A DNA stretch of 36,781 nucleotides from positions 1-36,781 of the forward strand of contig CALXXO010000007.1 in the NCBI GenBank assembly GCA_944392705.1. Direction: 5' to 3'. Under the pieces are notes generated by a model, which did not search any database, was not told where the DNA came from, and saw only the letters and a program-made list of their open reading frames with translations. A program made the translations under genes and the position numbers. Numbering within the stretch: position 1 is the stretch's first letter; each line of letters opens with the position of its first letter. Shown here piece after piece: positions 8,978 to 27,011 of this stretch. The DNA comes from an uncultured Spirochaetaceae bacterium (GTDB lineage Bacteria; Spirochaetota; Spirochaetia; Sphaerochaetales; Sphaerochaetaceae).

Positions 8978-9526
8978 ATGAAGACAAACCAGCAGAATCA
9001 AATACAAAGAGAGAGTGCTAAAAGAATAGCAAAAGACACATACAAAGCATCTCTAGTTTCTAGCAATATAGATAGTAAAGGAAAATATTCCATCTTTGAT
9101 ATTGCATCATGGTTTCTCTCCAAAGAGAGCATGACGCATAACAAGCTCCAGAAACTTTGCTACTACGCACAGGCATGGTGTTATGCCTTGTATGGTTATA
9201 AGTTGGCTGACACAATATTCGAAGCATGGGCATATGGCCCTACATCTCCAGAGCTTTATGACAAATATAAAGACTCTGGATTTGATCTGTTAGACAAGAA
9301 TAAAGAATGTACTGCGGTATTTGATTCCAAGGATTTCAGATTGCTTGAAAGGGTTTGGGTAACTTACGGAGATCAGACAGGAAATGCATTGGAAACGCTA
9401 TGCTATAATGAACTTCCTTGGAGAATTGCACGGTATGGACGCGCCCCTGGCGAAAGCTGCACAACTCCTATATCCCCTGAAATAATGCAATCATTCTACA
9501 AATCAATCTATTCAGGGGAGGATTAA
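8978..9526 (+). CDS. Panacea/DUF4065 (SocA-like) antitoxin-domain protein
   Basis: This 182-residue protein contains a Panacea domain (PF13274) from about residue 50 to 160. It shows the HNKLQKLCYYAQAWCYALYG helix, the FEAWAYGPTSPELYDKY motif and a C-terminal NELPWRIAR segment. Panacea proteins are antitoxin or adaptor domains found with many unrelated toxins; SocA is an adaptor that delivers a toxin for proteolysis. No toxin-sized reading frame fits in the 148-base gaps on either side, so it is an orphan here. AAGGA about 6 bases before the ATG supports the start. It is AT-rich (20 of 60 G+C in 9001-9060) and stands alone between minus-strand genes, consistent with acquisition by transfer. 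Confidence 0.85.
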   Translation: MKTNQQNQIQRESAKRIAKDTYKASLVSSNIDSKGKYSIFDIASWFLSKESMTHNKLQKLCYYAQAWCYALYGYKLADTIFEAWAYGPTSPELYDKYKDSGFDLLDKNKECTAVFDSKDFRLLERVWVTYGDQTGNALETLCYNELPWRIARYGRAPGESCTTPISPEIMQSFYKSIYSGED

Positions 9527-9674: not shown

Positions 9675-11339
9675 CTATTCAAGCCAAGGGAATACATCTG
9701 GCTTTGCCGGATCCCAGATAAATGTTCCAGGATGATCCTTGATATTAGTTACAGTGAATGTTCCATCTTCATTTGCAAGGATAGTCAGATCAGCTCTTCC
9801 GTTGTATGTCTCTGTATTTGTGTTGACTATACAAGAGATTGCAACCCCCGCTGCATTTTCAAATGTACTCGACTGGTAGCCACACATTACCACGTCATTG
9901 CGGAAGAAGTAGAACAGCTCAGCCGGAATGGAAGCATCAAGGCTTATGATTCCAAGCCTATCAAGGAGAGCTGCTTTGTTGGAATCGAAGTCCGCAGCAT
10001 ATCCAGGATGAGCTTTGTAATAGAATACATAATCATCACCATAGTACGTTGTCATGAATGTCAGATAATCTTCGAAATAGACTTCGCCAGCTGTTGATGT
10101 TCCGAGGAATATCATGATGCCCTTACCATTTTCATCAGCTTCTTCAAAGACAGATGAATCAAATTTATACATCTTCTGGAAAGCTGTTATTTCATCGGGA
10201 GATAAGGCTCCGAGGATACTATTCATATTAATCTGTGGTGCTCTATCATTTCCCTGTACCTTTTCGGTATATGCCTGTGAAGTTCCGAAAGCATCGGGAT
10301 TGTTTCTGTTCATAATCCATTCAATTTTCAGCTCTGGATCATTTATAAGAACAGGCATGAAATCTATCATCTGACGGTTTAAGGCCGGGAACAAACCTGT
10401 AAACTTGACAAATTCATCACTGTAGCCTTGTCCATTTAACGCTTTGACCTTTACAGAGTTCCATGCTTCCTCGACCTCTGAATAGAACGCCATTGAATTG
10501 TCAGGAGAAACACCTGTTCCGTATTTCTCTCTGAATATAGCTGGAGTTCCTGTGCCATCGGAGATTGCATAGACATCGAACTGATCAAATCCTATGCCAT
10601 TCTCAAGCATAAGATATGGAATCAGGAATGACTCGAAATCATTTATAAAAAGATGAAACACTGAATCTGAATTAAGCCCATGGAGATATCCAACATATTG
10701 ATGGAAAGCTTCAGTGAGCTCAAATAGTGCAATAGTATCGAGATTTGAACCATATTTACCACTGTCAGCAAATGGGTTCTTGATAATATTTGGAAGACAT
10801 TCATCCCAGTTGTATGCAGCAGATCTCTCTAGTGCCATGATTGTCGGTATTTGAGAATTAATTCCCAGTCCAAGTTCTTCTGCATATGCATTATCCTCAT
10901 CTGCCATGAAAAGGCTGAAGTAGGTGACAGGGACGGTAGCAGTAAGAAGTGCAATATTGTATTCATCTGCAGTGAGAATGTATTCGAAGTTCTCAAAGTC
11001 CGTTATGGTTCCGTCCGCTGTGTACTTAAGTGTTACCTGATGCTTTCCAAAGCTTCCGAGATCATAGTTGATATAATAACCATCTGCATCTTCAAGTATT
11101 TCGCATTCATCGGTTTTAATGCTGACAGGAAGCTCCATGCCGTTGATAAGTGCCGACTGAACTACAACGCTATCAGCATTATTGGTTTCAACGCTATCAG
11201 AAGAAAGGTTTATTCTGACTGTTGTGCTCGATGCCGTTGTGCTTACTTCCTCGGCTCTGTCCCAGTTGACGAAGAAGTCACAGCTACTGACAAGAAGGAG
11301 AATGAGCAGGATTGATATTATGCTAGAGATTCTTTTCAT
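9675..11339 (-). CDS. lipoprotein with GT80-like sialyltransferase domain
   Basis: This 554-residue protein starts with a lipoprotein signal ending LLVSSC, lipidated Cys20. A beta-rich Ig-like region at about 40-125 is followed by a region that I can align by eye with the GT80 sialyltransferases of Pasteurella (PM0188) and Photobacterium. The candidate catalytic residues are all present: D261 in SDGTG, H444 in YYKAHPG, E474 in SIPAELF and S490-S491 in YQSSTF. The order and spacing, the preceding FLGTSTAG loop and the terminal FIWDP also match. The Photobacterium enzymes share the lipoprotein-plus-Ig layout. A tryptophan present in the Pasteurella loop (GTTTWEG) is Ala here, so acceptor use may differ. 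Expected reaction is transfer of a CMP-activated nonulosonate to a glycan, but how the donor reaches a periplasmic enzyme is unclear. SD AAGGAGG is ideal. Probably co-transcribed with the barrel gene 11 bases upstream. Confidence 0.75.
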   Translation of the reverse strand: MKRISSIISILLILLLVSSCDFFVNWDRAEEVSTTASSTTVRINLSSDSVETNNADSVVVQSALINGMELPVSIKTDECEILEDADGYYINYDLGSFGKHQVTLKYTADGTITDFENFEYILTADEYNIALLTATVPVTYFSLFMADEDNAYAEELGLGINSQIPTIMALERSAAYNWDECLPNIIKNPFADSGKYGSNLDTIALFELTEAFHQYVGYLHGLNSDSVFHLFINDFESFLIPYLMLENGIGFDQFDVYAISDGTGTPAIFREKYGTGVSPDNSMAFYSEVEEAWNSVKVKALNGQGYSDEFVKFTGLFPALNRQMIDFMPVLINDPELKIEWIMNRNNPDAFGTSQAYTEKVQGNDRAPQINMNSILGALSPDEITAFQKMYKFDSSVFEEADENGKGIMIFLGTSTAGEVYFEDYLTFMTTYYGDDYVFYYKAHPGYAADFDSNKAALLDRLGIISLDASIPAELFYFFRNDVVMCGYQSSTFENAAGVAISCIVNTNTETYNGRADLTILANEDGTFTVTNIKDHPGTFIWDPAKPDVFPWLE

Positions 11340-11350
11340 GTTCTTCCTCC

Positions 11351-11893
11351 TTAATAGAGATAGCTTACAGCCACACCACAGGACAGCAGGTGCTTGTCAA
11401 AGGCGACAGTGCTGCTTGATTTACCATATCCGGATACAAGTGGAAGTGAATAATCTAGCAGCAGACTGACTCCAAGATGCTCAATCGGCTTGAATTCAAA
11501 TCCGCATCCGAGTGACATTCCGAACTCTGTTGATGCGATATCATTGAAAATGTAGATGATATCAAATACTCCGACTCGTGGCTCGATTGCGAACCATGAT
11601 GTTATGTCGAAGCTGAAAATAGCAGCCACATCGAGGTGCAATGGATTGAAATCCGTCAATCCATCGAATGTAAATCCATATCCGATGGAGTATCCAATTC
11701 CAAACATTCTATTTTCATCAAAGAAGTTAGAACCAGATACGGAGAGAATCAGTTCCTGAGCATTTACAGGATTGCTATCGGATTCTAAGTATCCTGAATA
11801 ATCGAACTGTACTCCGATTCTGCCTGCATCTGGAGCTGCAAACAGCGTAGACATTGCCAGTAGTAGTGCTGTTACAACAATTAAGCGTTTCAT
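11351..11893 (-). CDS. small secreted beta-barrel-like protein
   Basis: This 180-residue protein has a cleavable signal peptide (hydrophobic core VVTALLLAMSTLFA, cut near AAPDA). The remaining sequence has eight or so amphipathic strands with frequent aromatic residues and a C-terminal AVSYLY, consistent with a small eight-stranded outer-membrane barrel. The family is unrecognised. AGGAGT lies about 5 bases before the ATG. It is the first gene of a probable two-gene unit with the sialyltransferase-like lipoprotein; its stop codon overlaps that gene's ribosome-binding site. Confidence 0.7.
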   Translation of the reverse strand: MKRLIVVTALLLAMSTLFAAPDAGRIGVQFDYSGYLESDSNPVNAQELILSVSGSNFFDENRMFGIGYSIGYGFTFDGLTDFNPLHLDVAAIFSFDITSWFAIEPRVGVFDIIYIFNDIASTEFGMSLGCGFEFKPIEHLGVSLLLDYSLPLVSGYGKSSSTVAFDKHLLSCGVAVSYLY

Positions 11894-12082: not shown

Positions 12083-13186
12083 ATGAAGAAGCATTATGAT
12101 TACCTTATCGTAGGAACAGGATTATATGGAGCCGTATTCGCTCATGAAGCAATCAAGAAAGGGAAAAGTGTGCTGATGCTTGAGCGAAGGGCTCATGCTG
12201 GTGGGAATATATATACAGAGGTGAAAGATGGGATAACCATCCATAAATATGGTGCCCATATCTTCCATACTTCTATCAAGGAGGTGTGGAACTATGTGAA
12301 TGATTTGGTTCCTTTCAGACCATTCATAAATTCTCCAATTGCTGATTACCATGGCCACATCTACAATATGCCTTTCAACATGAATACATTTGCCAGAATG
12401 TGGGATATCTCAAAGCCTGAAGAAGCAAAAAGAATCATCGAGGAGCAGCGAAAGGAAATTAATGGAGTTCCTCAGAATCTTGAGGAGCAGGCAATTTCTC
12501 TGGTTGGAAGGGACGTTTATGAAAAGCTTATAAAAGGCTACACGGAGAAGCAATGGGGAAGGGATTGCAAGGAGCTTCCTCCTGAGATAATAAAGCGGGT
12601 ACCAATCAGATTCACCTATGATAACAATTACTTTACAGACCCGTATCAGGGAATTCCTGAAACGGGATATACATCTTTGATTAACAAATTGATTGATGGT
12701 GCTGATATTCTTCTCAACACAGATTATCTTCTTGAAAAAGAACGATGGGATGAAATGGCTGATTTCATCCTTTATACAGGCTGCCTGGATGCATTCTTTG
12801 GTTTCTCCGAGGGAAAGCTGCAGTACAGGTCCGAGGTATTCGAAGAAGAAAGAATAGAAAAAGAAGATTTTCAGGGCAATGCAGTTGTCAACTATACGGA
12901 CAGAGAAACTCCATGGACGAGAATAATCGAGCATAAGCATTTTTCAAAAGAACAGTCACCTGTTACATGGATTAGCCGGGAATATCCTGTTGATTACGAG
13001 AAAACAGGGGAGCCTTTCTATCCGATAAACGATGAAAGAAATAAGAAGCTTTACTCAATCTACAAGCGCATGGCAGATAATGAACCAAAGCTCATTATAG
13101 GTGGTAGGCTTGCAGATTATGCTTACTACGATATGGATAAAACGGTTGCGGCAGCTTTAGCAAAAGCGCGGACTGTCATTTGTTAG
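12083..13186 (+). CDS. glf: UDP-galactopyranose mutase
   Basis: This 367-residue flavoenzyme interconverts UDP-galactopyranose and UDP-galactofuranose in the cytoplasm. It has the FAD-binding G11-T-G-L-Y-G16 motif followed by the acidic residue pair in LMLERRAHAGGN, the family motif HKYGAHIFHTS, the RPFINSP and YNMPFNMNTF segments, the GYTEKQWGRDCKELP stretch and a final KLIIGGRLADYAYYDMD block. Length is normal for bacterial Glf. AGAGG lies 5 bases before the ATG. It supplies the galactofuranose donor for the surface glycan made by the neighbouring transferases. Its last 11 bases overlap the end of the convergent LicD gene. Confidence 0.97.
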   Translation: MKKHYDYLIVGTGLYGAVFAHEAIKKGKSVLMLERRAHAGGNIYTEVKDGITIHKYGAHIFHTSIKEVWNYVNDLVPFRPFINSPIADYHGHIYNMPFNMNTFARMWDISKPEEAKRIIEEQRKEINGVPQNLEEQAISLVGRDVYEKLIKGYTEKQWGRDCKELPPEIIKRVPIRFTYDNNYFTDPYQGIPETGYTSLINKLIDGADILLNTDYLLEKERWDEMADFILYTGCLDAFFGFSEGKLQYRSEVFEEERIEKEDFQGNAVVNYTDRETPWTRIIEHKHFSKEQSPVTWISREYPVDYEKTGEPFYPINDERNKKLYSIYKRMADNEPKLIIGGRLADYAYYDMDKTVAAALAKARTVIC

Positions 13187-14000
13187 GATCTTTCCATCTG
13201 ATCATCATGCAATGTGTCGCAAGCTTCCTTTTCCATTTTGGAGGAAGCTGCATATAGTCGCCATATATCTGTGTAAGCAATTCTTTATATCTCGCAGGAG
13301 CGGGGTATTCTTTTCCCTCGAATGGAAGCATGACCGTTTCCTTGAAATACTCAGTTTTATAGAAAAGCTTTGAGATACTCTTTGCTGATGTTGGACTCTT
13401 GACTAGTTCGCTTGGAGTATTGCAGCGATGGAGGGCCATCAGTTTCAGTGAGAATGTATTTGGCTTTTCCTTGAAATCCTTGAATGATGTTTCATTCTGG
13501 ATAAGGTTGAATCCTATCAGCTTTATTTTTCCTATGATTGTTGACTGATGGTAGAGTGCACACCATTGCTGGTGAAGTGTTTTTACCTCTTCCGGGATAT
13601 TCTTTATATTTTCATCATTGACATAATCCAGAACAAAAACATCTAGCCATATACCGAAATCTGGGATCTGTTTAAGGAACCTCTCTCTGACTTCAGTTTT
13701 CAGGGAAACGATTTTTGTCATGAAATATGGATAATCGTCGCGGTTCTCGTATGACCACAGACGGAATTCTGGTTTGCAGTGATTATTGAATTCCTTTTTG
13801 AGGATTTCATAATCATCTCTGAAAATCCAGATATCTATATCATCATCCCAGGGAATGAAACCTTGGTGTCTGACTGCACCAAGAAGGGTGCCATATGCAA
13901 GATAGTACTTGATTCCAAGTATCTTGCAGACTCTCGTCACCTCATCGAGTATTTCAATTCCGATCTGTTTCCTTTCTTCCAGTGTCAATGATATAGCCAT
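13176..14000 (-). CDS. LicD family phosphotransferase
   Basis: This 274-residue protein contains the LicD signature YYLAYGTLLGAVRHQGFIPWDDDID near its N-terminus, with the nucleotidyltransferase-type acidic cluster DDDID. LicD proteins transfer phosphocholine, or in the FKRP/FKTN branch phosphoribitol, from a CDP-activated donor to a glycan. Here no choline kinase or LicC is seen, but a TarI-like cytidylyltransferase lies 11 kb away in the same locus. I start at the ATG at 14000, close to the usual LTLEERKQIGIEIL beginning, in place of an in-frame GTG at 14054. No Shine-Dalgarno is present at either, but a good promoter places the transcription start next to the ATG. It ends tail-to-tail inside glf. 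Confidence 0.88.
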   Translation of the reverse strand: MAISLTLEERKQIGIEILDEVTRVCKILGIKYYLAYGTLLGAVRHQGFIPWDDDIDIWIFRDDYEILKKEFNNHCKPEFRLWSYENRDDYPYFMTKIVSLKTEVRERFLKQIPDFGIWLDVFVLDYVNDENIKNIPEEVKTLHQQWCALYHQSTIIGKIKLIGFNLIQNETSFKDFKEKPNTFSLKLMALHRCNTPSELVKSPTSAKSISKLFYKTEYFKETVMLPFEGKEYPAPARYKELLTQIYGDYMQLPPKWKRKLATHCMMIRWKDPNK

Positions 14001-14010
14001 AGTCTTGACT

Positions 14011-14040
14011 ATATTAAAGGATTTAGGTTTTTTACAGCAA
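14011..14040 (-). promoter_or_regulatory. candidate sigma70 promoter of licD-like gene
   Basis: On the minus strand TTGCTG (14040-14035), an 18-base spacer and TAATAT (14016-14011) lie 10 bases before the ATG at 14000. This predicts a leader of only a few bases. The -35 and spacing are identical to the candidate promoter of the YhhQ-type transporter. Confidence 0.45.
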
Positions 14041-14076
14041 CTGTAATGATTCACATTATCGTGTATGATGATGCCG

Positions 14077-14082
14077 TATAAT
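14077..14082 (+). promoter_or_regulatory. candidate -10 box of the DUF4422 gene
   Basis: TATAAT lies 19 bases before the TTG start at 14102 on the plus strand. A TTCACA hexamer is 21 bases further upstream, too far for a standard spacer, so the assignment is weak. Confidence 0.3.
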
Positions 14083-14101
14083 CTTTTTACGAGGTCCTCG
14101 A

Positions 14102-14881
14102 TTGACAGTATTTGTAGTTACACATAAGGAGATTCCGGATGATTTCCCTGCTGGATACGAAATCATTCAGGTAGGAGCTGAAGGAAAAAAGCACTTTTCT
14201 TCATTTTCAGATGATTCCGGAGATAATATTTCTTTCAAAAATCCGAATTACTGTGAACTTACAGCCCAGTACTGGATATGGAAGAATTATCAGGATGATA
14301 TCGTAGGACTTTGTCATTATCGGAGATTCTTTTTTTCATGGCCTAAATATCTTCTTAGAACACTATTGGGGATAAGGACTTCGATGATTCCGGAGAAATA
14401 TATTCTGGATATTCTAAGGAACCATGATGCGATAGTCACCTTGCCGAGTTTCCTAAGCAAAACTGTCCGTGAACGATATGCAATCTCACATTATATTGAA
14501 GATCTGGAAAAAGCAGAGAAGGCTATTCAGGAGAAATATCCAGACTATATTGAATCGTTCAATACTGTCATGAACGGACGTAAATATCATTATGGCAACA
14601 TGATTATCTGTAAGAAGGAACTTTTCGATTCGTATTCAGAATGGCTTTTTGATATCCTCTTTGAAGTTGAGAAAGATACTGATTTAAGCAACAGAGTTCC
14701 GTATCAGCAGAGAGCATATGGCTTTCTGTCTGAAAGACTGATGGATGTATTTCTCCTTGCCAATAATGTGAAATGCAAAGAGCTTCCTGTAATTGTTACA
14801 GATGAACCTCTTCTGATTGTTCAGACCATTAGGTTCCTGAAGCGTAAAATCAAGAGGATATTTGTACCTCCTGCAAAATAA
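14102..14881 (+). CDS. DUF4422 glycosyltransferase-like protein
   Basis: This 259-residue protein matches DUF4422 (PF14393), a family common in capsule and exopolysaccharide loci and thought to be glycosyltransferases. It has the N-terminal FVVTHKEIP strand, the NPNYCELTAQYWIWKN motif, GLCHYRRFFFSWPKY and RAYGFLSERLMDVFLL. The start is a TTG, supported by GAGGT about 7 bases upstream and by the family's usual start a few residues before VVTHK. A T7 run at 14330-14336 encodes the FFF of the RRFFF motif. Its stop codon is directly followed by the stop codon of the convergent GT4 gene, with no base between. Confidence 0.85.
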   Translation: MTVFVVTHKEIPDDFPAGYEIIQVGAEGKKHFSSFSDDSGDNISFKNPNYCELTAQYWIWKNYQDDIVGLCHYRRFFFSWPKYLLRTLLGIRTSMIPEKYILDILRNHDAIVTLPSFLSKTVRERYAISHYIEDLEKAEKAIQEKYPDYIESFNTVMNGRKYHYGNMIICKKELFDSYSEWLFDILFEVEKDTDLSNRVPYQQRAYGFLSERLMDVFLLANNVKCKELPVIVTDEPLLIVQTIRFLKRKIKRIFVPPAK

Positions 14882-16024
14882 TCATTTCACTTTGTCGAAG
14901 ATAGCAAGAAGGCTATCTGCAAAATGTGATAGGGAATACTTCTCAACGCTCTTCTTTGCATTTGAAGCTATTTGCAATCTGTAATCCTTTTTATCAACAA
15001 GAGGAAGTGCTTTCTCAAGGAATTCTTTATCGGAAGAGAATGCGAAGCCATTGAAACCTTCAATTAGTGATTCTGCCAAAGCTTCATCTTTTCTGCACAC
15101 TATTGGATGCCCGCTTGCAAGGGCTTCGATATATGTTAGTCCCTGTATTTCACTTGTTGAACTTGAGATGAATATGTCACCGGCATCATAATACTTCCAG
15201 ATGATTTCCATCGGGATGTTTCCAGCAAACTTAATATAATCATTCATATCAAGCGCATTTACCATATCTTCAAGCTTCTGCCTTTCTGTTCCATCCCCGA
15301 CAATGAGCATTCTGGTATTATTCCGATTCTTGTGCATCGATACGAAGTGGGTTATTGATTCTTCGACGTTTTTCTCTTCGCTTAACCGGCATATTGATAC
15401 AAATACAATATCTGAATCAGTGAAACCAAAAGATGCCCTTAATGCCTTTCTTTCATTTTCTGGACATTTCTGGCCAAGCATATCTATATCAAGGCCAACA
15501 GGAATGATTGACATTTCATTCTCTGTCCCATATCTCTTCAGCAGATTATATATCTTTGAAGTAGGGCAGATTATATAATCCACATCCTTGAGCAATTTGG
15601 GGATGAAAGTATTTGTAGCCCATTCCCATAGGTGTTCATTCTTTGTGAAGTGGATTCCATAAGCATCAAAATCAGTATGGCACGTGTGTACCAAAGGAAT
15701 TTCCAGCTTCTTTGCAATCCTCTTTGCAAAAATCATTGTGAAGAACTCGCACTGGGAATGCACGATATCAGGTTTCCATTCTAGTATGTCTTTCAACAGG
15801 TGATCATGGATTGCAATGGAAGCATATGAATCCTTATAAAGCTGAGGGAAATTGCTTTTGATGTAATAAACATCATCCTTGAAGAAGGATTCCTTTTCCG
15901 AAGAGATTGTAAGAATACGAACTTCATGTCCCTTGGCTTCAAGTGCTTTCTTTTCATTTATGACAGCCAAAGTCACGCCGCATCTAAGCGGGAGATAAAA
16001 TTCTGTTGTTATAAGGATCTTCAC
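14882..16024 (-). CDS. GT4 glycosyltransferase, diacylglycerol-glucosyltransferase-like
   Basis: This 380-residue GT-B enzyme has an N-terminal acceptor domain (ITTEFYLPLRCGVTLAVINE; PDIVHSQCEFF; HTCHTDFDAY) and a C-terminal donor domain with SICRLSEEKNVEESI, IVGDGTERQKLE and the E-x7-E motif in SEIQGLTYIEALASGHP. The closest characterised relatives I can recall are 1,2-diacylglycerol 3-glucosyltransferases and other GT4 retaining transferases. It could therefore act on a lipid or on the growing glycan. The gene is on the minus strand, tail-to-tail with DUF4422, and divergent from the next GT4 gene with a 116-base gap between them. Confidence 0.85.
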   Translation of the reverse strand: MKILITTEFYLPLRCGVTLAVINEKKALEAKGHEVRILTISSEKESFFKDDVYYIKSNFPQLYKDSYASIAIHDHLLKDILEWKPDIVHSQCEFFTMIFAKRIAKKLEIPLVHTCHTDFDAYGIHFTKNEHLWEWATNTFIPKLLKDVDYIICPTSKIYNLLKRYGTENEMSIIPVGLDIDMLGQKCPENERKALRASFGFTDSDIVFVSICRLSEEKNVEESITHFVSMHKNRNNTRMLIVGDGTERQKLEDMVNALDMNDYIKFAGNIPMEIIWKYYDAGDIFISSSTSEIQGLTYIEALASGHPIVCRKDEALAESLIEGFNGFAFSSDKEFLEKALPLVDKKDYRLQIASNAKKSVEKYSLSHFADSLLAIFDKVK

Positions 16025-16140
16025 GTTTGCTTCCTATTTCCTCTTGAGGAGTTTATCATTGTATAAATAAGCTGTAAATGCGAGAATCAGATACAGTAAT
16101 CTGAAGTTCTGATTATTTCCATTGAGTATATGGGGGCACA

Positions 16141-17268
16141 ATGTACAAGATGCGAATCTTGCATATTATAGATATTTTAGGGAGCGGTGGAATCGAGACA
16201 TTGCTAAGCTCTTTAAATAAGAATATTGACCAAGAAGAGTGTGAATTCAACCTTGTTTATCATAATTCACCATATGATTTGATGAAGGGGGATAGAATTC
16301 CAGCGTTATGTTCTTTTCAATATAAAGCTCCGGCTTTTTGGATGGTGAATTTATATCAATATAGGAAATGGTGGAAAGACTTTCTCAAATCCCATGGAAA
16401 ATTTGATATAGTACATATACATGATTACTTTGATTCATTTCCTTTTATAAAAAGCATACTAATCAAGAATAACCCGAGAACAAAATTTGTTTTTCATGCA
16501 CACAGTTTAAAAGGGCATACAATTTCGGTTTACAATTTATGGCGATCCCTTTTGGCGTACCCTGTAAGATTCTTTGGCGATTATTATCTTGGATGTTCAA
16601 ATCAGGTTATCCTCAATAGATTTGGGAAGAATGTATATGAGGGTACAAAAAAAGCTATCCTAAATTGTGGTATTAACACAGAACGATTTAGATTTAATCA
16701 AAATGTTAGGGATGAAATACGAAAACAATATGAAGCCAATGATAAAATCGTCATTGGCCATATCGGAAGATTTACAGAAGTAAAGAATCATTCATTCTTA
16801 ATTGATTTCTTCAATGTATTTCATTCGATGTATGGGAATTCGCAACTGTGGTTAGTTGGGGAGGGAGAGCTTCTTCCGGAAATAAAGCATAAAGTTCGGA
16901 GTTTGAATCTTATTGATGATGTAAAATTCATGGGTTTTTCATCATGTCCAGAAAAATTCATGATGGGAATGGATTTCTTTGTATTTCCTTCAAAGAGTGA
17001 AGGGTTGGGGTTGGTTTTAGTAGAAGCACAAACAACAGGTTTGGCTTGTATTGTTTCTGATGCAATTCAGCCTGAAGCTGATATGCATTGTGGATTACTT
17101 AAAATAATCAAATTAAATGATCCGATGGATATCTGGATAAAGGCAGTTGAGTCTTTTATGGGATACACAAGATCAGATCATTCATATAATGTTGTTAAAA
17201 ATGGGTATGATATAAAAGGTGTGGCATCTGACTTAGTGCTTCTTTACTCCAATCTTCTTAAAGAATAA
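16141..17268 (+). CDS. GT4 glycosyltransferase (EpsF/CapM-like)
   Basis: This 375-residue GT-B transferase has the N-terminal LHIIDILGSGGIETLL loop that holds the donor phosphate in GT4 enzymes, FDIVHIHDYFDS, and a C-terminal domain with GHIGRFTEVKNHSFLI, LVGEGELLPEI and the E-x7-E motif in SEGLGLVLVEAQTTG. It probably adds a hexose during assembly of the surface glycan repeat. GGGGG lies 4 bases before the ATG at 16141; an ATG at 16150 is less well placed. Base composition is much lower in G+C than flanking housekeeping genes (15 of 60 in 16381-16440, 19 of 60 in 16741-16800), consistent with transfer. The last 36 bases overlap the convergent GT2 gene. Confidence 0.87.
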   Translation: MYKMRILHIIDILGSGGIETLLSSLNKNIDQEECEFNLVYHNSPYDLMKGDRIPALCSFQYKAPAFWMVNLYQYRKWWKDFLKSHGKFDIVHIHDYFDSFPFIKSILIKNNPRTKFVFHAHSLKGHTISVYNLWRSLLAYPVRFFGDYYLGCSNQVILNRFGKNVYEGTKKAILNCGINTERFRFNQNVRDEIRKQYEANDKIVIGHIGRFTEVKNHSFLIDFFNVFHSMYGNSQLWLVGEGELLPEIKHKVRSLNLIDDVKFMGFSSCPEKFMMGMDFFVFPSKSEGLGLVLVEAQTTGLACIVSDAIQPEADMHCGLLKIIKLNDPMDIWIKAVESFMGYTRSDHSYNVVKNGYDIKGVASDLVLLYSNLLKE

Positions 17269-18225
17269 GAGAAGCCTATATGGGATGCTTAGACAGTAAG
17301 GCGAAATATATTTGCCTATGTAATAGCTCAGTTTCAGATACATAGGGATTTTATATTTGAGAATATTTGCGCAATTATCAGATATCGCCTTGATAATCGA
17401 CAATTTTTCCTCTTTTTCAGTATTCCCTCCTTTATACAGGCAAAAAAAGAAAGAAGCTGATCTGACAATATAGAAGACACTTTTATCAGTGAACATTGGA
17501 AAGTCATTTTTCAAATCGTTGTATCTATTCATGCTTACAACAAATGCATCGAAGCACTTCGTTGTATTGAAATTATGAGTAAGGCTTGAATAGTTATTTA
17601 TTCGATAATGGTATAATACTGAATTAGTTAGAAGAATCCTTTTGGCATTCAAGAAAAGTTTATGGGTTGTAGCAACGTCCTCGCAGTATCTTATTTCTTC
17701 AGGATACAGAGTCCCATTAAAAAGCTCTCTTTTATAAATCTTATTCCAGGCATAGCTGCCATAGGTTTCATATATTATACCAGATAGCGCTGTTTCTTTG
17801 GATACAATCTGAGAGCAACCAGGTAAATCATGGGGGGGGGTCTCCTCCCCTGTATTGTTATCATATTTAAAGAACCAAAATATAGAAATATCCGCATCGG
17901 TCTTTTTCATTTCAGGAATTAAATCAGAAAGAAGATTGGTATTAACCCAGTCATCACTATCAATTAAGCAGATATAATCTCCTTTGCTGTTTTTGATTCC
18001 TATATTTCTTGCAGCTGACAATCCTCTGTTCTCTGTTTTTATGCATCTGAAACGATTGTCGTTATTTAAAAATTCAGTGTAGATTGAAAAAGATGAATCC
18101 GTAGAACCATCATCAACAATTATTACTTCAAAGTCTGTATAGCTTTGCTTCTGTATGGACTCTAAACATTGAGATAAATATTTTTCTGTGTTGTAAACAG
18201 GTATAATTACACTTACTTCTGGCAT
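17233..18225 (-). CDS. GT2 family glycosyltransferase with a C9 homopolymer
   Basis: This 330-residue GT-A protein begins VSVIIPVYNTEKYLSQCLESI and carries VDDGSTD and the DxD-like LIDSDDW (about 88-93), all standard in family GT2 enzymes of the EpsJ/CpsI type. The C-terminal third is helix-rich with a basic FFKKIGVKKH tail that may sit at the membrane. A run of nine C on the coding strand (17832-17840) encodes part of TPPH at residues 129-132. A change of one base would shift the frame in the middle of the protein. GGAGAG lies about 9 bases before the ATG. AT-rich like its neighbour and convergent with it. Confidence 0.88.
   Translation of the reverse strand: MPEVSVIIPVYNTEKYLSQCLESIQKQSYTDFEVIIVDDGSTDSSFSIYTEFLNNDNRFRCIKTENRGLSAARNIGIKNSKGDYICLIDSDDWVNTNLLSDLIPEMKKTDADISIFWFFKYDNNTGEETPPHDLPGCSQIVSKETALSGIIYETYGSYAWNKIYKRELFNGTLYPEEIRYCEDVATTHKLFLNAKRILLTNSVLYHYRINNYSSLTHNFNTTKCFDAFVVSMNRYNDLKNDFPMFTDKSVFYIVRSASFFFCLYKGGNTEKEEKLSIIKAISDNCANILKYKIPMYLKLSYYIGKYISPYCLSIPYRLLLFFKKIGVKKH
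17832..17840. repeat. G9/C9 homopolymer tract inside GT2 gene
   Basis: Nine consecutive G on the plus strand (C on the coding strand) in an otherwise AT-rich gene. It is next to a purine stretch that reads GGGGAGGAGA on the coding strand. Such runs are known hot spots for slipped-strand mispairing. Confidence 0.85.
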
Positions 18226-18347
18226 TCTTTAACTCTCTCCGCTGTTGTAAAGCATGGTATAGACATAATTGAGTATACCTTTATTAATTGCAACTTATTG
18301 TTTCTTTGTGAATATTATGATTACCAGAAGTCAATTGCTGCCAACGG

Positions 18348-18380
18348 TTGTTTGCTATTGGTAATCAATATATATATAAT
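18348..18380 (+). promoter_or_regulatory. candidate promoter of the flippase/export operon
   Basis: Two overlapping arrangements are possible on the plus strand: TTGTTT (18348-18353) with a 17-base spacer to TATATA (18371-18376), or TTGCTA (18352-18357) with 17 bases to TATAAT (18375-18380). The first leaves the AAGGA ribosome-binding site (18385-18389) intact in the mRNA. It stands in the divergent gap before the six-gene run 18395-27011. Confidence 0.45.
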
Positions 18381-18394
18381 CTGTAAGGATTCTC

Positions 18395-19951
18395 ATGAGA
18401 AAAGAAAGCAATGATAGGGAGAAAAAAAGACTGAAAAGCGTAAAACGCAATGTTCAGGCCTTTTCGTTTATTGGCATTTTCTCCGCTATTCTTATGTATC
18501 TGGAAAGAGTTGTGTTTGTTGCCCATATGCCGATTGAGTATGTCGGGCTTTATGGCCTTTTTCAGAACATCATGAATTATCTATCAATTGCTGATTTTGG
18601 AATTGAGACAGCTCTTACATATTGCCTTTATGAACCACTTGCACACCAGAAATACAATGTTGTTGCTGCAATAATGCGATATATCAAAAAGTTTTATGTG
18701 CTTCTTGGTTCAATAATAATGCTAGGTGGATTTATCTGCTGCTGGAAAATAAACTGGTTTGTCAGACCTGAAGATATGACGGAAGGAATCAGAATCTACT
18801 TTTTTCTCTTCCTTTTCTCTCAGGCATCTGGCTATTTTATTACTTCCAGAGCTGTTCTCCTTAATGCTGATCAGAAACAATATATAAACATCATCGCATC
18901 ACAGGGTGGTACGTGTATTCAGATGATTGTGCAGATGCTTATTATTGTTTTAACAAAGAATTATTTCCTTTATATACTTGCAGTAGTAATAGTTAATCTG
19001 ACAAAGAATCTGGCAGTTTATGGTATATCGACAAGAAATTATAACGAGGTTTTTTCGAAGAAATATAAACAGGAAGTTGTTCCTAAAGAAATCTCAAATA
19101 GGCTAAAGTTCAATATAGGTCCGATGTTCCTTCATAAGATAGGAAGGGTAATCATATCTTCGACGGATACTATTATCCTTAGTATCCTTTTCGGAACGGC
19201 AGTTGTTGGTAGGTACAATAATTACATTCTTCTCTCGAATGCATTCATGACAGTGTTCTGGCTTCTGGCACGATCAATCACACCGAGTATAGGTGATGTT
19301 CGTGTTGATGCTGCTGATGATTCGATGCTTGAACTATATGATAAAATCCTCTATGGCAATTTCCTGCTTTCGATGATTTCAGGTATCGTATTCACTGTAA
19401 TTGCTCAGTCATTTATAAGAATATCATTCGGGGCAGTGAACGAGCTTTCACTTGCTATTGTTTTTTCTTTAGGAGCAAGTCTTTTTCTCAACAGCCTGCG
19501 GATTACGAATTCAACATTCCGCGATGCTCTTGGTCTTTTTTCACCAGATTGGTATAAGCCAATTATAGAAGCTATATTCAATATTGTTGTTTCCTATTAT
19601 CTGGCCATTAAAATGGGGCCTGTTGGTGTTATTATCGGAACTGTTCTTACTTATTTCTGTATATCGCTATGGATTGAAACATATGTAATTGTTTCCGTCG
19701 GATTCAAGAATAAGCTTTTCAGATTTATCGTTAAGAACCTTGTATATGTAATTGTTTACTGCGTTTTTGTCTTTATTGCTTACTATCTAACAACTTTGTA
19801 TACAATTTGTAGCAATCTGGTAACACTGATAGTCAATGCTATTGTTGGTCTTGTTGTATCTGTGATTGGCAGTTTGCTGCTTGCAATACACAATAAGTCA
19901 GCCAAGCTTGCTCTTGCTCAGTTTGTAAAGATTATAAGGCAGAAGGTATGA
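18395..19951 (+). CDS. Wzx-like polysaccharide/lipid-linked oligosaccharide flippase
   Basis: This 518-residue integral membrane protein has about 12-14 predicted helices and the polysaccharide-transporter (MOP superfamily) pattern. The N-terminal segment carries the helix 1 ERVVFVAHMPIEYVGLYGLF and the YLSIADFGIETALTYCLYEPLA motif; a second half has SSTDTIILSILFGTAVVGRYNNY. It would flip an undecaprenyl-linked (or other lipid-linked) glycan across the inner membrane. AAGGA is 5-6 bases before the ATG. First of six tightly spaced plus-strand genes; its stop overlaps the next start by four bases (ATGA). An A7 run lies just after the start (18422-18428). Confidence 0.87.
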   Translation: MRKESNDREKKRLKSVKRNVQAFSFIGIFSAILMYLERVVFVAHMPIEYVGLYGLFQNIMNYLSIADFGIETALTYCLYEPLAHQKYNVVAAIMRYIKKFYVLLGSIIMLGGFICCWKINWFVRPEDMTEGIRIYFFLFLFSQASGYFITSRAVLLNADQKQYINIIASQGGTCIQMIVQMLIIVLTKNYFLYILAVVIVNLTKNLAVYGISTRNYNEVFSKKYKQEVVPKEISNRLKFNIGPMFLHKIGRVIISSTDTIILSILFGTAVVGRYNNYILLSNAFMTVFWLLARSITPSIGDVRVDAADDSMLELYDKILYGNFLLSMISGIVFTVIAQSFIRISFGAVNELSLAIVFSLGASLFLNSLRITNSTFRDALGLFSPDWYKPIIEAIFNIVVSYYLAIKMGPVGVIIGTVLTYFCISLWIETYVIVSVGFKNKLFRFIVKNLVYVIVYCVFVFIAYYLTTLYTICSNLVTLIVNAIVGLVVSVIGSLLLAIHNKSAKLALAQFVKIIRQKV

Positions 19952-20922
19952 AACTTTCAGAGAGAATAAAAGAGTACCCGCGACATCTCATTGTTCCAGC
20001 AGTATGGTGCGGAATAACTGATGTACTTTCTCTTAATTCTGATAAGAATATTGTACATAAAAGACTGCGAGTTCCTGCATACAGGCGCTATTGCCAAATG
20101 CTTTCAGACTGGGTTTATGAGCAGCATCGCAACCTCTTTGATAAAGCAGATACACTGTCTCTTGGTTCTCCCGATGAAAATCCTCCAATCTGGATTATGT
20201 GGCTACAGGGAATGGATAAGGCCCCAGAATTGGTAAGAATGTGCTATGAATCTGTTAAAAGGCACGCCAATGGGCATCCCATAAGGATTATTACAGAGGA
20301 GAATATAAGTTCATATGTAGAGCTTCCATCATGGATTTGGGATAAATACAGCAATGGAATTCTTTCAAGAACAAATTTTTCGGATATAACACGGCTTGCG
20401 CTTCTTGCAGAATATGGTGGGTTGTGGATTGATTCTACTGTGTTCGTCAATAAAAATATTGATGAGGAAGTTTTTAGCTTTCCTTTTTTTTCTACAAGAA
20501 GGCTTCCAGAAGATGATGTTTTTTACAGATATCCGAAACCGGAGTGGGCTGTCTTTATTTTTGGTGTCTGGAAGGATTCATTCATAATGAAGACTTGTCG
20601 GGATGCCCTTTATGAACACTTTAGGGAGCACAACAGTTTCCCAACATATTTCATGATTGATTATGTTTTTGCAGCATTGCGTGACCATTCCAGGAAGTTC
20701 AGAGAATGCATTGAGATGGTGCCTGTGAATAATCTCAGGGTTACACATCTTATGCGTATAATAAACGATGAATATAACCCGGATGTATTTGATGATTATC
20801 TGAACGACAAGGATTATTTTGCCAAGCTTTCGAACAGAAAGAAGGTCCAGAAGACTACGGCCTCCGGTAATTTGACATATTATGGAGAGTTATGCAGAAG
20901 AATGCTCTCCACTGATGAATAA
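19948..20922 (+). CDS. Caps_synth/GT32-like glycosyltransferase
   Basis: This 324-residue protein matches capsular polysaccharide synthesis proteins (PF05704) of the GT32-like fold. It has PPIWIMWLQGMDKAPELVRMC, HPIRIITEENISSYVELP, the FSDITRLALLAEYGGLWIDSTVF motif with a DxT in the usual DxD place, and PTYFMIDYVFAALRD. It is probably a cytoplasmic sugar transferase acting on the lipid-linked glycan. Translationally coupled to the flippase by an ATGA overlap. A T8 run at 20484-20491 encodes PFFS directly after the metal-binding motif region. Confidence 0.82.
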   Translation: MKLSERIKEYPRHLIVPAVWCGITDVLSLNSDKNIVHKRLRVPAYRRYCQMLSDWVYEQHRNLFDKADTLSLGSPDENPPIWIMWLQGMDKAPELVRMCYESVKRHANGHPIRIITEENISSYVELPSWIWDKYSNGILSRTNFSDITRLALLAEYGGLWIDSTVFVNKNIDEEVFSFPFFSTRRLPEDDVFYRYPKPEWAVFIFGVWKDSFIMKTCRDALYEHFREHNSFPTYFMIDYVFAALRDHSRKFRECIEMVPVNNLRVTHLMRIINDEYNPDVFDDYLNDKDYFAKLSNRKKVQKTTASGNLTYYGELCRRMLSTDE

Positions 20923-20951
20923 TAATATGATTCTTGTGTATACTGGAAAAC

Positions 20952-23390
20952 ATGAATTGGTTCTTCCGCTTTTTAGAGAAACATCCTAAGGGTGTAATTG
21001 CTGTAATCCTTTTGATTACAGTATTCATGCTTTATTTTGCCTTTGGGATTGGTATGAATGCCAGTTATGGAGCATTCATGCCTGTTGGAGAAGATACAGA
21101 TACTTTTCAGGGGGGCGTATCTGGACAGACTCCAGTGACAGGTGTAGAGCGTAGGGTGAAAACAACTCCCGTTGCTCCTATAGATTCTTATGATACACCT
21201 TCTGATGGAACAGAAGATGCAGAACCTGCTCCCGCTGTAGAAGATACAGTCGTGGTAGATGAGAATGCTGATCTGCCGTATACCGCTACATATCTTCTTC
21301 TTGTCGGTGGGGATGATATCTTCTCCGTTGATAACCTGAATCTCTTGGAAGAAACACTCAATGGTTTTTCTGCATTCAGGGATGTAGGGGAGCCCTATTC
21401 TGTTTTCGATTATTTCACATTCGAGTCATCTGGACCAAGATTGAGGGTAACTCCTATCTCGCCAGAAAATGGTGATATGGAATGGATTGAAGCAGAAGCC
21501 AAGCTTCTAGAGAAGCGTATAACTTCAGATCCGATTATAAAGTATTTCCTTGTCAGCGGAGATGCACATCACTTCCTTTTTTCGATTCCTATCGCATCTG
21601 TTTCTTCCGCACGGCTCGATGAATTCTATGATTATTTCGATCCTCTTCGAGAAGCAGGCCTTGATGTATATATCAATGGCGGTCCTGTTATTACGGCAAA
21701 GATTATGGAGTATCTTGTAAAGGACCTTTCCAGTCTTCTTGTCCTCTGTTTCCTTGCGATTATCGTAGTTTATTATTTCAATTTCCGCTCTAAAAGAAGT
21801 GTCCTTATTCCTGCATCTTTGTCGCTCATAGGTCTTATATGGACACTTGGTACAATGTCTCTTCTCGGGATTGATATATCGATACTCAATGTCGTTACAC
21901 CGTGTATGGTGCTGACTCTTGGGTCTGCATATTCGATATATATCCTTGGTGATTATTACGCCAGCTATGCAGCTGGAACGACTTCAACAGCAGTTCAGGT
22001 CGTCAGAAAGACTTTAGGGACCATTTTCTTTGCTTGCTTTACGACTGTCATTGGATTCTTGTGCCTTCTTATTTCAAGAACTTCTGGGTTGAGAGAGTTC
22101 GGCGTATCTGTTGCATTCGGTCTTTCATATTGTGCAATTCTTTCATTTACATATCTTCCGGCTATTCTGATGATTGTGAGAAAACCTTCAGAGAAACAGC
22201 TTGCAAGCTATGAGAACGGTCTTCTCTCCAGGTTTGTCAGAAAGCTTGCCGGCCTGATTACAAAGTATTGGTATGTTCTTTGTGTTATATTTGGTCTGCT
22301 TTGCTGTGCCTATTTCTTCGTAAATGATAGAATTCCTCTTGATTCGAACTATATGTCCTATTTCCCTGAGTCTGATCAGTTTGGTCAGGATTCCAGGGCT
22401 TTTGCTGAAGAGATTGGCGGAACTAATCCATTTACAATAAAGATAATCGCACCTGAAGGTAGTAAGAATTATTTCCAGGATAGGGATAACCTTGTCAGCG
22501 TGCGGGAGTACGAGAAAGCAATTCTTGAATGCCCTGATATTCTACAGAGCATTTCCTACACGAACTATATGTCCTTTGCAAATGCGACTGTCAGCGGTGA
22601 TTATGGCATTCCTTCAAATCGAGGACTTATATCGATGCTCTCAAGGCTCGTTTTGATGCTTGGAAATTACAATCCGCAGGTATCGCAGATAGTCAGCGAT
22701 GATTTCAATACCCTTAGCCTGATCATACAGCACTGGGATTCTGAAGAAAGGGATTTGATGACTGTCTCAAGCATAGGAAGGGCTTATAAGGCTATGGTCG
22801 ATAATCTTGACCTGCTACCAGAGGGAACTACCGTCCAGATCCAAGGATATCCAATAACCAACTACAAATTCTCTAATAGGCTTCTTGATGACCAGAACTA
22901 TAGTACTATACTCTCTGTGTTCCTTGTCTTTCTGACAACGGCGCTTCTTTTCCGTTCAGCTAAAAGAGGGCTCCTGACAATCATACCGGTTCTCGCTGGT
23001 ATCATGATTAACTATGTATTCATGTTTATTGCAGGTATCCCATTCGATATGGTGACAGTAAGCTTTTCTTCCATAGCAATTGGCTGTGGGGTAGATGATG
23101 CTATTCACTTCATGTTCAGAATCAGGTCTAAGGCACATGGAAAGGTTGCAACACCTGAAGCTATTTATTCTGCGCTTGCAGAGACTGGAAGATCCATAAT
23201 CATGACGACTGTCTCGATTGTTGTGGGAATGATGATGCTTTCATTTGCTTCTTATACACCAATCAGGTACTTCGGGCTTCTTATGAGTGTGACACTCTTT
23301 GGGTGTATGGTATCGACATTGCTTTTCCTCCCTTCGTTTGCTCTGCTCTTTGCAAAGATTGGTGGAAAGCTTAAGAAACTCAGGAAATAA
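20952..23390 (+). CDS. RND/MMPL superfamily exporter (HAE-3/HpnN-like)
   Basis: This 812-residue protein has the duplicated RND plan: one helix (about 13-35), a large periplasmic loop, five helices, then a second copy. The second half keeps the helix motif GCGVDDAIHFMFRIR with paired Asp residues. The matching site in the first half reads TLGSAYSIYILGDYY and lacks them, so only one half may carry the proton relay. An acidic, Pro/Thr-rich insertion (about 45-110) precedes the first porter domain. Relatives move lipids, hopanoids or glycolipids to the outer membrane. I start at the ATG at 20952; an upstream TTG (20934) has no ribosome-binding site. Lies between transferase and Wzi-like genes, which suggests export of the locus product. 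Confidence 0.85.
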   Translation: MNWFFRFLEKHPKGVIAVILLITVFMLYFAFGIGMNASYGAFMPVGEDTDTFQGGVSGQTPVTGVERRVKTTPVAPIDSYDTPSDGTEDAEPAPAVEDTVVVDENADLPYTATYLLLVGGDDIFSVDNLNLLEETLNGFSAFRDVGEPYSVFDYFTFESSGPRLRVTPISPENGDMEWIEAEAKLLEKRITSDPIIKYFLVSGDAHHFLFSIPIASVSSARLDEFYDYFDPLREAGLDVYINGGPVITAKIMEYLVKDLSSLLVLCFLAIIVVYYFNFRSKRSVLIPASLSLIGLIWTLGTMSLLGIDISILNVVTPCMVLTLGSAYSIYILGDYYASYAAGTTSTAVQVVRKTLGTIFFACFTTVIGFLCLLISRTSGLREFGVSVAFGLSYCAILSFTYLPAILMIVRKPSEKQLASYENGLLSRFVRKLAGLITKYWYVLCVIFGLLCCAYFFVNDRIPLDSNYMSYFPESDQFGQDSRAFAEEIGGTNPFTIKIIAPEGSKNYFQDRDNLVSVREYEKAILECPDILQSISYTNYMSFANATVSGDYGIPSNRGLISMLSRLVLMLGNYNPQVSQIVSDDFNTLSLIIQHWDSEERDLMTVSSIGRAYKAMVDNLDLLPEGTTVQIQGYPITNYKFSNRLLDDQNYSTILSVFLVFLTTALLFRSAKRGLLTIIPVLAGIMINYVFMFIAGIPFDMVTVSFSSIAIGCGVDDAIHFMFRIRSKAHGKVATPEAIYSALAETGRSIIMTTVSIVVGMMMLSFASYTPIRYFGLLMSVTLFGCMVSTLLFLPSFALLFAKIGGKLKKLRK

Positions 23391-25237: not shown

Positions 25238-25957
25238 ATGAATATCGCGGTAATCTTTGCAGGTGGAGTCGGCAAGAGAATGCATTCCGGTTCCACACCT
25301 AAACAGTTTCTGGAACTTCAGGGTAAGCCGATACTGGTTTATACTCTGGAGCATTTCCAGAAATCTAGGGATATTGATGGGATTGTGCTGGTCTCGATTT
25401 CCGAGTGGATTGGTTATTGTTCAGAGCTTGTTAAGAGATACAATCTCACCAAAGTCGATGCTATTGTTCCCGGTGGAAAGACTGGTTTCCTCTCAATTGA
25501 CAATGGACTGAGGAAGGCTCATGAGCTTTATCCAGGGGATTCGGTTGTTCTCATACACGATGGAGTAAGACCTCTTATTGATGCATCTCTTATTTCCTCC
25601 TGCATTTCCGCAGTACGAGAGTTTGGTTCTGCGATAACAACAGCCCCGGCAATTGAGACGATAATCGTGGATGATGCCAATGGCGATGTAAACGAGATAA
25701 TCGACAGATCCAGCTGTCAGATTGCCAAGGCTCCTCAGGGGTTTATTCTCGATGATATCTTCTCTGTGCATCAGAAGGCATTATCTGAGGGCTACGATGA
25801 TTTCATAGATTCAGCCTGTCTCATGCATAAATATGAAGTTAAGCTTCATTCTGTTCCTGGTCCTTCCGATAACATAAAGATCACGACCCCCTCTGATTTC
25901 TATGTGTTCAAAGCCTTTGTGGAAGCCAGGATAAACTCAGAAATCTTTGGGGTGTGA
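25238..25957 (+). CDS. TarI/IspD-like cytidylyltransferase
   Basis: This 239-residue nucleotidyltransferase has the CTP-binding loop FAGGVGKRM (7-15) and PKQFLELQGKPILVYTLEHF, then VLIHDGVRPLID and the TTAPAIETIIVDDANG segment. The loop wording AGG-x-G-x-RM is closer to TarI and Bcs1 (ribitol-5-phosphate cytidylyltransferases) than to IspD, which usually reads AAG. Together with the locus setting this points to CDP-ribitol or a similar CDP-alditol, not isoprenoid synthesis, but IspD activity is not excluded. Ten bases after the Wzi-like gene; its stop codon is separated by one base from the start of the next gene. Confidence 0.82.
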   Translation: MNIAVIFAGGVGKRMHSGSTPKQFLELQGKPILVYTLEHFQKSRDIDGIVLVSISEWIGYCSELVKRYNLTKVDAIVPGGKTGFLSIDNGLRKAHELYPGDSVVLIHDGVRPLIDASLISSCISAVREFGSAITTAPAIETIIVDDANGDVNEIIDRSSCQIAKAPQGFILDDIFSVHQKALSEGYDDFIDSACLMHKYEVKLHSVPGPSDNIKITTPSDFYVFKAFVEARINSEIFGV

Positions 25958-25958
25958 T

Positions 25959-27011
25959 ATGTGGCTTGATAACGATATTGTCCGCAAGGATCTTGAATAT
26001 GCTGTATCGGTCCCTTTCATAGACTGGCCATCATTTGCTGGTAAGCATTTTTTCATAACAGGTGGAACTGGGCTTATTGGATCTACAATTGTCAATGTCC
26101 TTGCTTATGCGAATCGTGCTTATAATCTTGGATTGTCATTGATGCTGCTTGTACGCGATGAAAAAAGAGCCAGAACTATATTCTCAGAGCAGATGAAATA
26201 TTGTTCTCTTGATTTCATCGAAGGGAATATCGAATCGTTTCCTTCAATTGCTCCTGATTTCGATTATATCATCCATGGAGCCAGCCAGACTGCTAGCAAG
26301 GCCTTTGCAGAACAGCCAGTGGAGACGATTAATACCGCAGTTCTTGGTACTCTTGGTATCTTTGAGTTTGCACGGAAGAATCCGCTGGAAGGTTTTATCT
26401 ACCTTTCTTCGATGGAGGTTTATGGAACTCCTCAGGATGATAGAAAGATAATGGAGGATAATCCAGCAGTCCTCAGCCTTTCATCCGCACGTTCTTCTTA
26501 TCCAGCCAGCAAGTGCCTTGCAGAATCAATTGCTGTTTCATATTTTGCTGAGTATAAAGTACCAGCTAAAGTTATCAGGCTTACCCAGACCTTTGGACCA
26601 GGAGTGAGATATTCCGATCAGAGAGTATTCGCGGAATTCGCAAGGTGTGCTATCGAAGGCCGTAATATCGTCCTTGCCACAAAAGGTGAGACTTGTCGCA
26701 GTTATCTTTACACAATAGATGCTGCAACAGCGATATTATCGATTCTTCAGGGAGGAAAGTCCGGAGAAGCCTATAATGCCGCAAATGAATCGACATACTG
26801 TTCTGTCAAAGCAATGGCGGAGCTTGTTGCAGGACTGGGGGATGATAGAATCAATGTTGTTGTGGATGAATCCAAAGCAGCAGGGCGGGGTTTCGCCCCA
26901 GTGCTGCATATGAATCTTGATACTTCGAAACTTAAGGCGCTTGGATGGTATCCATCATATGACCTTGAAACTATGTTCAGAAATCTCATGGCAACGATGA
27001 GTGATTCATAG
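25959..27011 (+). CDS. extended SDR (NAD-dependent epimerase/dehydratase)
   Basis: This 350-residue enzyme has the extended-SDR Rossmann motif GGTGLIG (35-41), a YLSSMEVYG strand and the catalytic Y181-x3-K185 (SSYPASKCLAES), followed by RLTQTFGPG and a C-terminal substrate domain. It probably reduces, epimerises or dehydrates a nucleotide-linked sugar for the same glycan. Adjacent to a TarI-like enzyme, it could form the sugar whose phosphate is cytidylylated, or modify the CDP product, but the known ribulose-5-phosphate reductase TarJ is from another family. I start at ATG 25959 (GGGGTG 6 bases upstream) in place of the TTG at 25947. Last gene of the six-gene run. Confidence 0.85.
   Translation: MWLDNDIVRKDLEYAVSVPFIDWPSFAGKHFFITGGTGLIGSTIVNVLAYANRAYNLGLSLMLLVRDEKRARTIFSEQMKYCSLDFIEGNIESFPSIAPDFDYIIHGASQTASKAFAEQPVETINTAVLGTLGIFEFARKNPLEGFIYLSSMEVYGTPQDDRKIMEDNPAVLSLSSARSSYPASKCLAESIAVSYFAEYKVPAKVIRLTQTFGPGVRYSDQRVFAEFARCAIEGRNIVLATKGETCRSYLYTIDAATAILSILQGGKSGEAYNAANESTYCSVKAMAELVAGLGDDRINVVVDESKAAGRGFAPVLHMNLDTSKLKALGWYPSYDLETMFRNLMATMSDS

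Follow-up and report, generated by a model that had tools for sequence, protein, structure and literature searches.

A predicted spirochete lipoprotein with a GT80 sialyltransferase-like fold, repeatedly encoded beside a predicted outer-membrane beta barrel

INTRODUCTION

The closest described systems to the protein considered here are the GT80 sialyltransferases of Photobacterium (2z4t, 4r83, and 2zwi), which have a two-Rossmann GT-B fold, a DDG motif, and, in 2z4t and 4r83, an N-terminal beta domain, and PmST1 of Pasteurella multocida (PM0188; 2ex1 and 2ihz), whose structures are missing that domain. In PmST1, residues D141, H311, E338, S355, and S356 are named as important for catalysis, and GT80 enzymes can also act as a CMP-sialate hydrolase, trans-sialidase, or sialidase (PMC4202792). 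The acceptor pocket of PmST1 is shaped by W270 (PMC12797295). A precedent for donor scavenging comes from a different family, neisserial Lst (GT52): the gonococcus, unable to make CMP-NANA, takes it from the host to sialylate its LOS (PMC11078009). Polysialyltransferases (GT38; PF07388) also have an HP motif and a GT-B fold.

Here we follow up the original prediction, made from sequence, of a lipid-anchored GT80-like sialyltransferase encoded in a 36,781-nucleotide stretch of contig CALXXO010000007.1 (the window) from an uncultured Spirochaetaceae bacterium (GCA_944392705.1), whose genome comprises 2.12 Mb and is 75% complete. Searches of the literature on GT80 lipoproteins, on GT80 or CMP-sialic acid in spirochetes, and on Alistipes sialyltransferases found nothing relevant.

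RESULTS

The gene is carried on the minus strand (Table 1), and the plus-strand frame at the same place is full of stops. Its product, P0001, contains all of the motifs named previously, which are LVSSC with Cys20, SDGTG with D261, YKAHPG with H444, IPAELF with E474, YQSSTF with S490-S491, and a late FIWDP. The lipobox is present by inspection of the sequence, and relatives that keep its cysteine include G377, G248, and G391. Residues 30 to 123 are mostly beta strands in the AlphaFold model, in a region that aligns inside full-length 2z4t and 4r83, and full-length 2z4t can be aligned to P0001 from residue 29 onward. This is where the Photobacterium enzymes carry their Ig-like domain, and the beta region may be Ig-like as proposed earlier.

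Table 1. Positions in the window of the GT80-related gene, its functional regions and residues, and the partner gene
Feature	Coordinates	Strand	Basis
GT80-related lipoprotein, 554 aa (P0001)	9675..11339	-	ORF; homologs within and beyond the genus; GT80 fold
Lipoprotein signal peptide, lipobox LVSSC, end at Cys20	11280..11339	-	Sequence; Cys kept in 11/12 aligned relatives
N-terminal beta-sandwich (putatively Ig-like) region, residues 21-123	10971..11279	-	Mostly beta strands in model; 2z4t alignment
GT-B double-Rossmann domain, residues 124-545	9705..10970	-	Z 17.8-21.2 vs GT80 structures over 124-545
D261, equivalent of the PmST1 catalytic base D141	10557..10559	-	Profile alignment; conserved in 11/12
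A417, equivalent of PmST1 W270 (acceptor pocket)	10089..10091	-	Profile alignment; variable across family
H444 of KAHP, equivalent of PmST1 H311	10008..10010	-	Profile alignment and conservation
E474, equivalent of PmST1 E338	9918..9920	-	Profile alignment and conservation
S490-S491, equivalents of PmST1 S355-S356	9867..9872	-	Profile alignment and conservation
Partner gene, 180-aa predicted 8-stranded outer-membrane beta barrel	11351..11893	-	Model; Foldseek; adjacency in 8 genomes

The original prediction had named the predicted structure as a test of the GT80 fold. The AlphaFold model of P0001 (mean pLDDT, 84.9; pTM, 0.84) is of the two-Rossmann type, and GT80 entries are closest to it by two methods. 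GT80 enzymes rank first in Foldseek (E values of 1.4e-13 to 5e-9), and rows 1 to 20 from a second structural aligner are all GT80 sialyltransferases (Z, 17.8 to 21.2), with 338 to 346 residues aligned in most of them. The next folds are plant-type UGTs (Z, 11.1) and polysialyltransferase (Z, 9.6 to 9.7), and the PF07388 scores of two orthologs are below the cutoff (20.2 and 19.9 versus 23.3).

Kinship is harder to detect in the sequence itself. P0001 is only 12 to 13% identical to the Photobacterium enzymes, and when searched alone against Pfam, NCBIfam, and the PDB (phmmer) it gave no useful match and was missed by PF11477. The G001 ortholog, which is 43% identical, scores above the PF11477 gathering score (27.1 versus 25 bits) and is the only protein to pass that cutoff in 395 genomes of the class. 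A profile of P0001 and its orthologs (seven) finds the Pasteurella dagmatis GT80 sialyltransferase 4v39 in the PDB (E value, 0.006), and profile-profile alignment against PmST1, the sequence of which was verified against PDB chains, is collinear over 345 columns (E value, 1.9e-6). All five catalytic positions are paired in this alignment, in the predicted order, and R63 of PmST1 is paired with R172. The GT80 label stands for the fold and the catalytic core, whereas a formal family match fails for P0001 and is reached via the G001 ortholog alone.

The five catalytic equivalents have a mean conservation of 0.87 across 12 relatives, compared with 0.47 for D/H/E/S columns drawn at random from that domain (P of about 6e-5), and by this sequence comparison the motif set is not a product of chance. 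The KxHP histidine and E474 are each kept in all 11 sequences that cover them, and one serine of the S490-S491 pair is replaced by Thr in 3 of 11 relatives; D261, K442, H444, P445, E474, and S491 are nearly invariant in P0001 and its close relatives. The expected DDG aspartate is only partly borne out, since the catalytic Asp is present but the first acidic residue of the D/E-D/E-G motif of GT80 is replaced by Ser or Thr, giving [ST]DG. The substitution of Ala for the Pasteurella loop Trp was read correctly, and the position of that residue, A417, varies in the family, as does E236, the equivalent of H112; neither Trp270 nor His112 of PmST1 is matched by a like residue in P0001. Because of the PF11477 miss, the [ST]DG motif, and the varying H112 and W270 equivalents, we refer to a divergent GT80-related clade rather than to formal members of GT80; judging from sequence and model, this clade, with P0001 in it, probably works like GT80.

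Within a set of 100 relatives, six further species of the genus have full or near-full matches to P0001, at 61 to 32% identity; there is also a split copy in G053 and a match in G069, which belongs to another family. The distribution is patchy, and of the 48 genomes of the genus in this set, 7 carry the gene. Extending a profile search to 395 genomes of the class brought in G248, G377, G363, G391, and G090 as carriers, and plasmid and viral collections contained no relatives. The 61%-identical relative is from an uncultured Spirochaetales bacterium of the same genus as the window, which supports the predicted spirochete setting outside the usual range of GT80.

Export signals differ among the more distant copies. 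By eye, a lipobox, a membrane anchor, or a plain signal peptide can be recognized in a remote G065 pair and in the G090 copy. The G065 pair consists of two adjacent GT80-like paralogs of ~455 aa (L067:7255-10106), of which one carries a lipobox and the other a membrane anchor. No lipobox or other export signal is present in the G069 copy, which from its sequence may be cytoplasmic; this copy (L066:6936-9269) has as neighbors genes for an IspD-like protein and for LicD, together with an unmatched, open-ended 338-aa ORF that by eye resembles a capsule-type transferase. Domain architecture varies as well. A remote relative in G391 (L096:5164-6897) has a Cadherin-like beta-sandwich domain (PF12733) fused to a GT80-like domain; there, the catalytic Asp is substituted and the HP, E, and S residues are kept. 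In the related genome G011 (contig 17, L098:5168-16412), two tandem giant lipobox proteins of 1,774 and 1,972 aa both include a GT80-like module, scoring 46 and 54 bits, respectively, with the A4 profile; the catalytic D, HP, and SS are lost, and these are likely noncatalytic surface modules, going by their sequence.

The gene directly upstream in the window, ending 11 bases before the GT80-related start, encodes the predicted barrel. Its model (pLDDT, 83.5) consists of a signal helix and eight long strands, and the best structural matches in Foldseek are OmpA, Ail/OmpX, NspA, and OmpW. A homolog is found directly upstream of the GT80-related gene in eight spirochete genomes (G000, which is the window genome, G028, G009, G001, G024, G017, G248, and G377, the last with a weak match of 30 bits), with a gap of about 5 to 30 bases. 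Comparison of the neighboring genes places the pair in about five genomic contexts: G000/G028/G009, G024/G017, G001, G248, and G377. When a barrel profile was run against the 100 relatives, all matches of at least 170 bits were the six copies beside a GT80-related gene, and the next, at 47 bits, scored as other barrels do. Since most of those copies had gone into the profile, their own high scores are expected; the informative result is that no other genome scored strongly. In G010 the transferase gene is present and the barrel is absent, and the G053 locus is cut by contig ends. This repeated pairing of a GT80-related gene with a predicted outer-membrane barrel is new here. The two genes are inherited together and probably coexpressed.

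The absence of CMP-sialate synthesis, previously noted for the window only, extends genome-wide in a search of carriers for neuB/neuA-type genes. NeuB and PF02348 (NeuA/KdsB-type) searches found no true enzyme in the same-family carriers (among them G001 and G053, 97% complete; G028 and G017, 95%; and G009, 94%) or in G069 (99% complete), and a search for CMP-sugar synthetases in G248 and G377 found none. PF02348 enzymes are present in remote carriers of families f7 and f42, and the G065 genome contains both NeuB and a gene resembling CMP-sugar synthetases. LpxC is absent from all 18 genomes tested, including every tested carrier. Synthesis of CMP-sialate, CMP-Kdo, and LPS appears to be missing from the same-family carriers; absence from a draft genome is no proof, and here it agrees across several genomes that are >93% complete.

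Candidate links to sialic acid were rejected. The only NeuB-like match in the window genome (contig 72, L057:129-2126) is not a sialate synthase but a DAHP synthase-prephenate dehydratase fusion. It exceeds the NeuB profile cutoff and is therefore a trap when sialate synthesis is scored; NeuB matches in nearly all relatives resembled sialate synthase at first sight, and the same 53-239 segment, in proteins of about 640 aa, is recurrent across the genus. The sole PF02348 match in the window genome is a MobA-like protein rather than a CMP-sugar synthetase. NanE was found in only one of the tested carriers (G009), and the GT80-related gene is therefore not linked to sialic acid catabolism.

Elsewhere in the window, a surface glycan cluster (12083-23390) encodes a UDP-galactopyranose mutase, LicD, DUF4422, several GT4/GT2 enzymes, a weakly flippase-like protein, and an MMPL-family transporter. 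At 25238-27011 (plus strand), in a surface glycan locus, an IspD/TarI-like cytidylyltransferase gene overlaps an epimerase/dehydratase gene; the two may belong to a CDP-polyol or CDP-sugar route that supplies the LicD protein at 13176-14054. A lone SocA/Panacea antitoxin-domain gene (8978-9526, plus strand) adjoins the transferase gene, and no toxin partner was identified.

DISCUSSION

The barrel partner and the absent CMP-sugar and LPS pathways, neither of which was part of the original prediction, bear on mechanism, and the barrel and the lack of CMP-sialate genes set P0001 apart from the Photobacterium enzymes. With the fold, catalytic residues, lipobox, barrel pairing, and missing synthesis genes computed, we tentatively favor P0001 as an exported GT80-type, CMP-dependent transferase at the outer membrane that uses a donor from outside. 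The lipoprotein would consist of a beta-sandwich stalk bearing a GT-B domain with GT80-like action, in which the KxHP histidine, the PAE glutamate, and the serine pair would hold a CMP-activated sugar, with D261 serving as the base as the sugar is passed on to an acceptor glycan. The sugar may go to the surface glycan of the cell itself, which is LPS-free, or to a neighboring glycan. Given its inheritance and probable expression with a dedicated barrel, the outer membrane is the most likely site of P0001 action, where the two proteins would work together; activity, donor, acceptor, an outward orientation with surface exposure, and host association are inferred. No route to CMP-nonulosonates or CMP-Kdo is recognizable in the carriers, so the donor would have to be external, for example, CMP-sialic acid out of lysed host cells. 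In this respect they would resemble the gonococcus, although Lst acts upon LOS, which the carrier spirochetes appear to lack. Against an exported transferase stand the scarcity and lability of external CMP-sialate, the nonconserved Trp270 and His112 equivalents, the presence of NanE in only one tested carrier, the decayed GT80-like modules in the genus, and the G069 copy without a lipobox. It is a rather doubtful extension that LPS-free spirochetes have a mobile two-gene device for surface glycosylation, made up of a lipoprotein transferase and its own barrel and working outside the cell on a host-scavenged nucleotide-sugar donor, and that related modules became noncatalytic parts of giant surface lipoproteins.

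The donor need not be a nonulosonate. A CMP-releasing transferase of the same fold could use a CDP-polyol or other cytidylyl donor made by the IspD/TarI-like enzyme that is encoded near some copies; LicD enzymes belong to the same locus. The conserved residues are those that hold CMP, an IspD-like gene lies directly downstream in G001 (172.2 versus the D-ribitol-5-phosphate cytidylyltransferase cutoff of 166) and another adjoins the G069 copy, the window has its own IspD-like and epimerase-type genes, and multiple IspD copies (two or three) occur in several carriers. However, such a donor would arise within the cell, away from the exported enzyme, and six carriers (G017, G024, G053, G248, G377, and G069) have a single IspD that presumably serves housekeeping, which led us to reject a general association of the GT80-related gene with IspD/TarI. 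We consider this reading unlikely.

There is also a low probability that P0001 is a surface glycan-binding lipoprotein (an adhesin or lectin) that has kept the GT80 fold and lost transfer in vivo. An extracytoplasmic location with no obvious nucleotide-sugar supply and the variation of acceptor-site residues would fit binding, and the G011 modules, decayed in the same genus, make binding without catalysis possible. The close relatives, however, keep the six nearly invariant residues as an active site needs, which favors activity over binding only. A trans-sialidase or sialidase acting upon existing host sialosides, activities of which GT80 enzymes are capable and for which no new donor synthesis is needed, is very unlikely, as the corresponding activities of PmST1 depend on CMP and the carriers mostly have no NanE with which to use the released sugar.

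If the exported transferase that we favor is active, it would be a GT80-type transferase in bacteria without recognizable LPS or CMP-sugar synthesis, and bacterial surface sialylation from outside the cytoplasm would become testable. The divergent acceptor pocket may offer new specificity for glycan synthesis, and the repeated pairing with a small barrel is a pointer to a specific surface machine.
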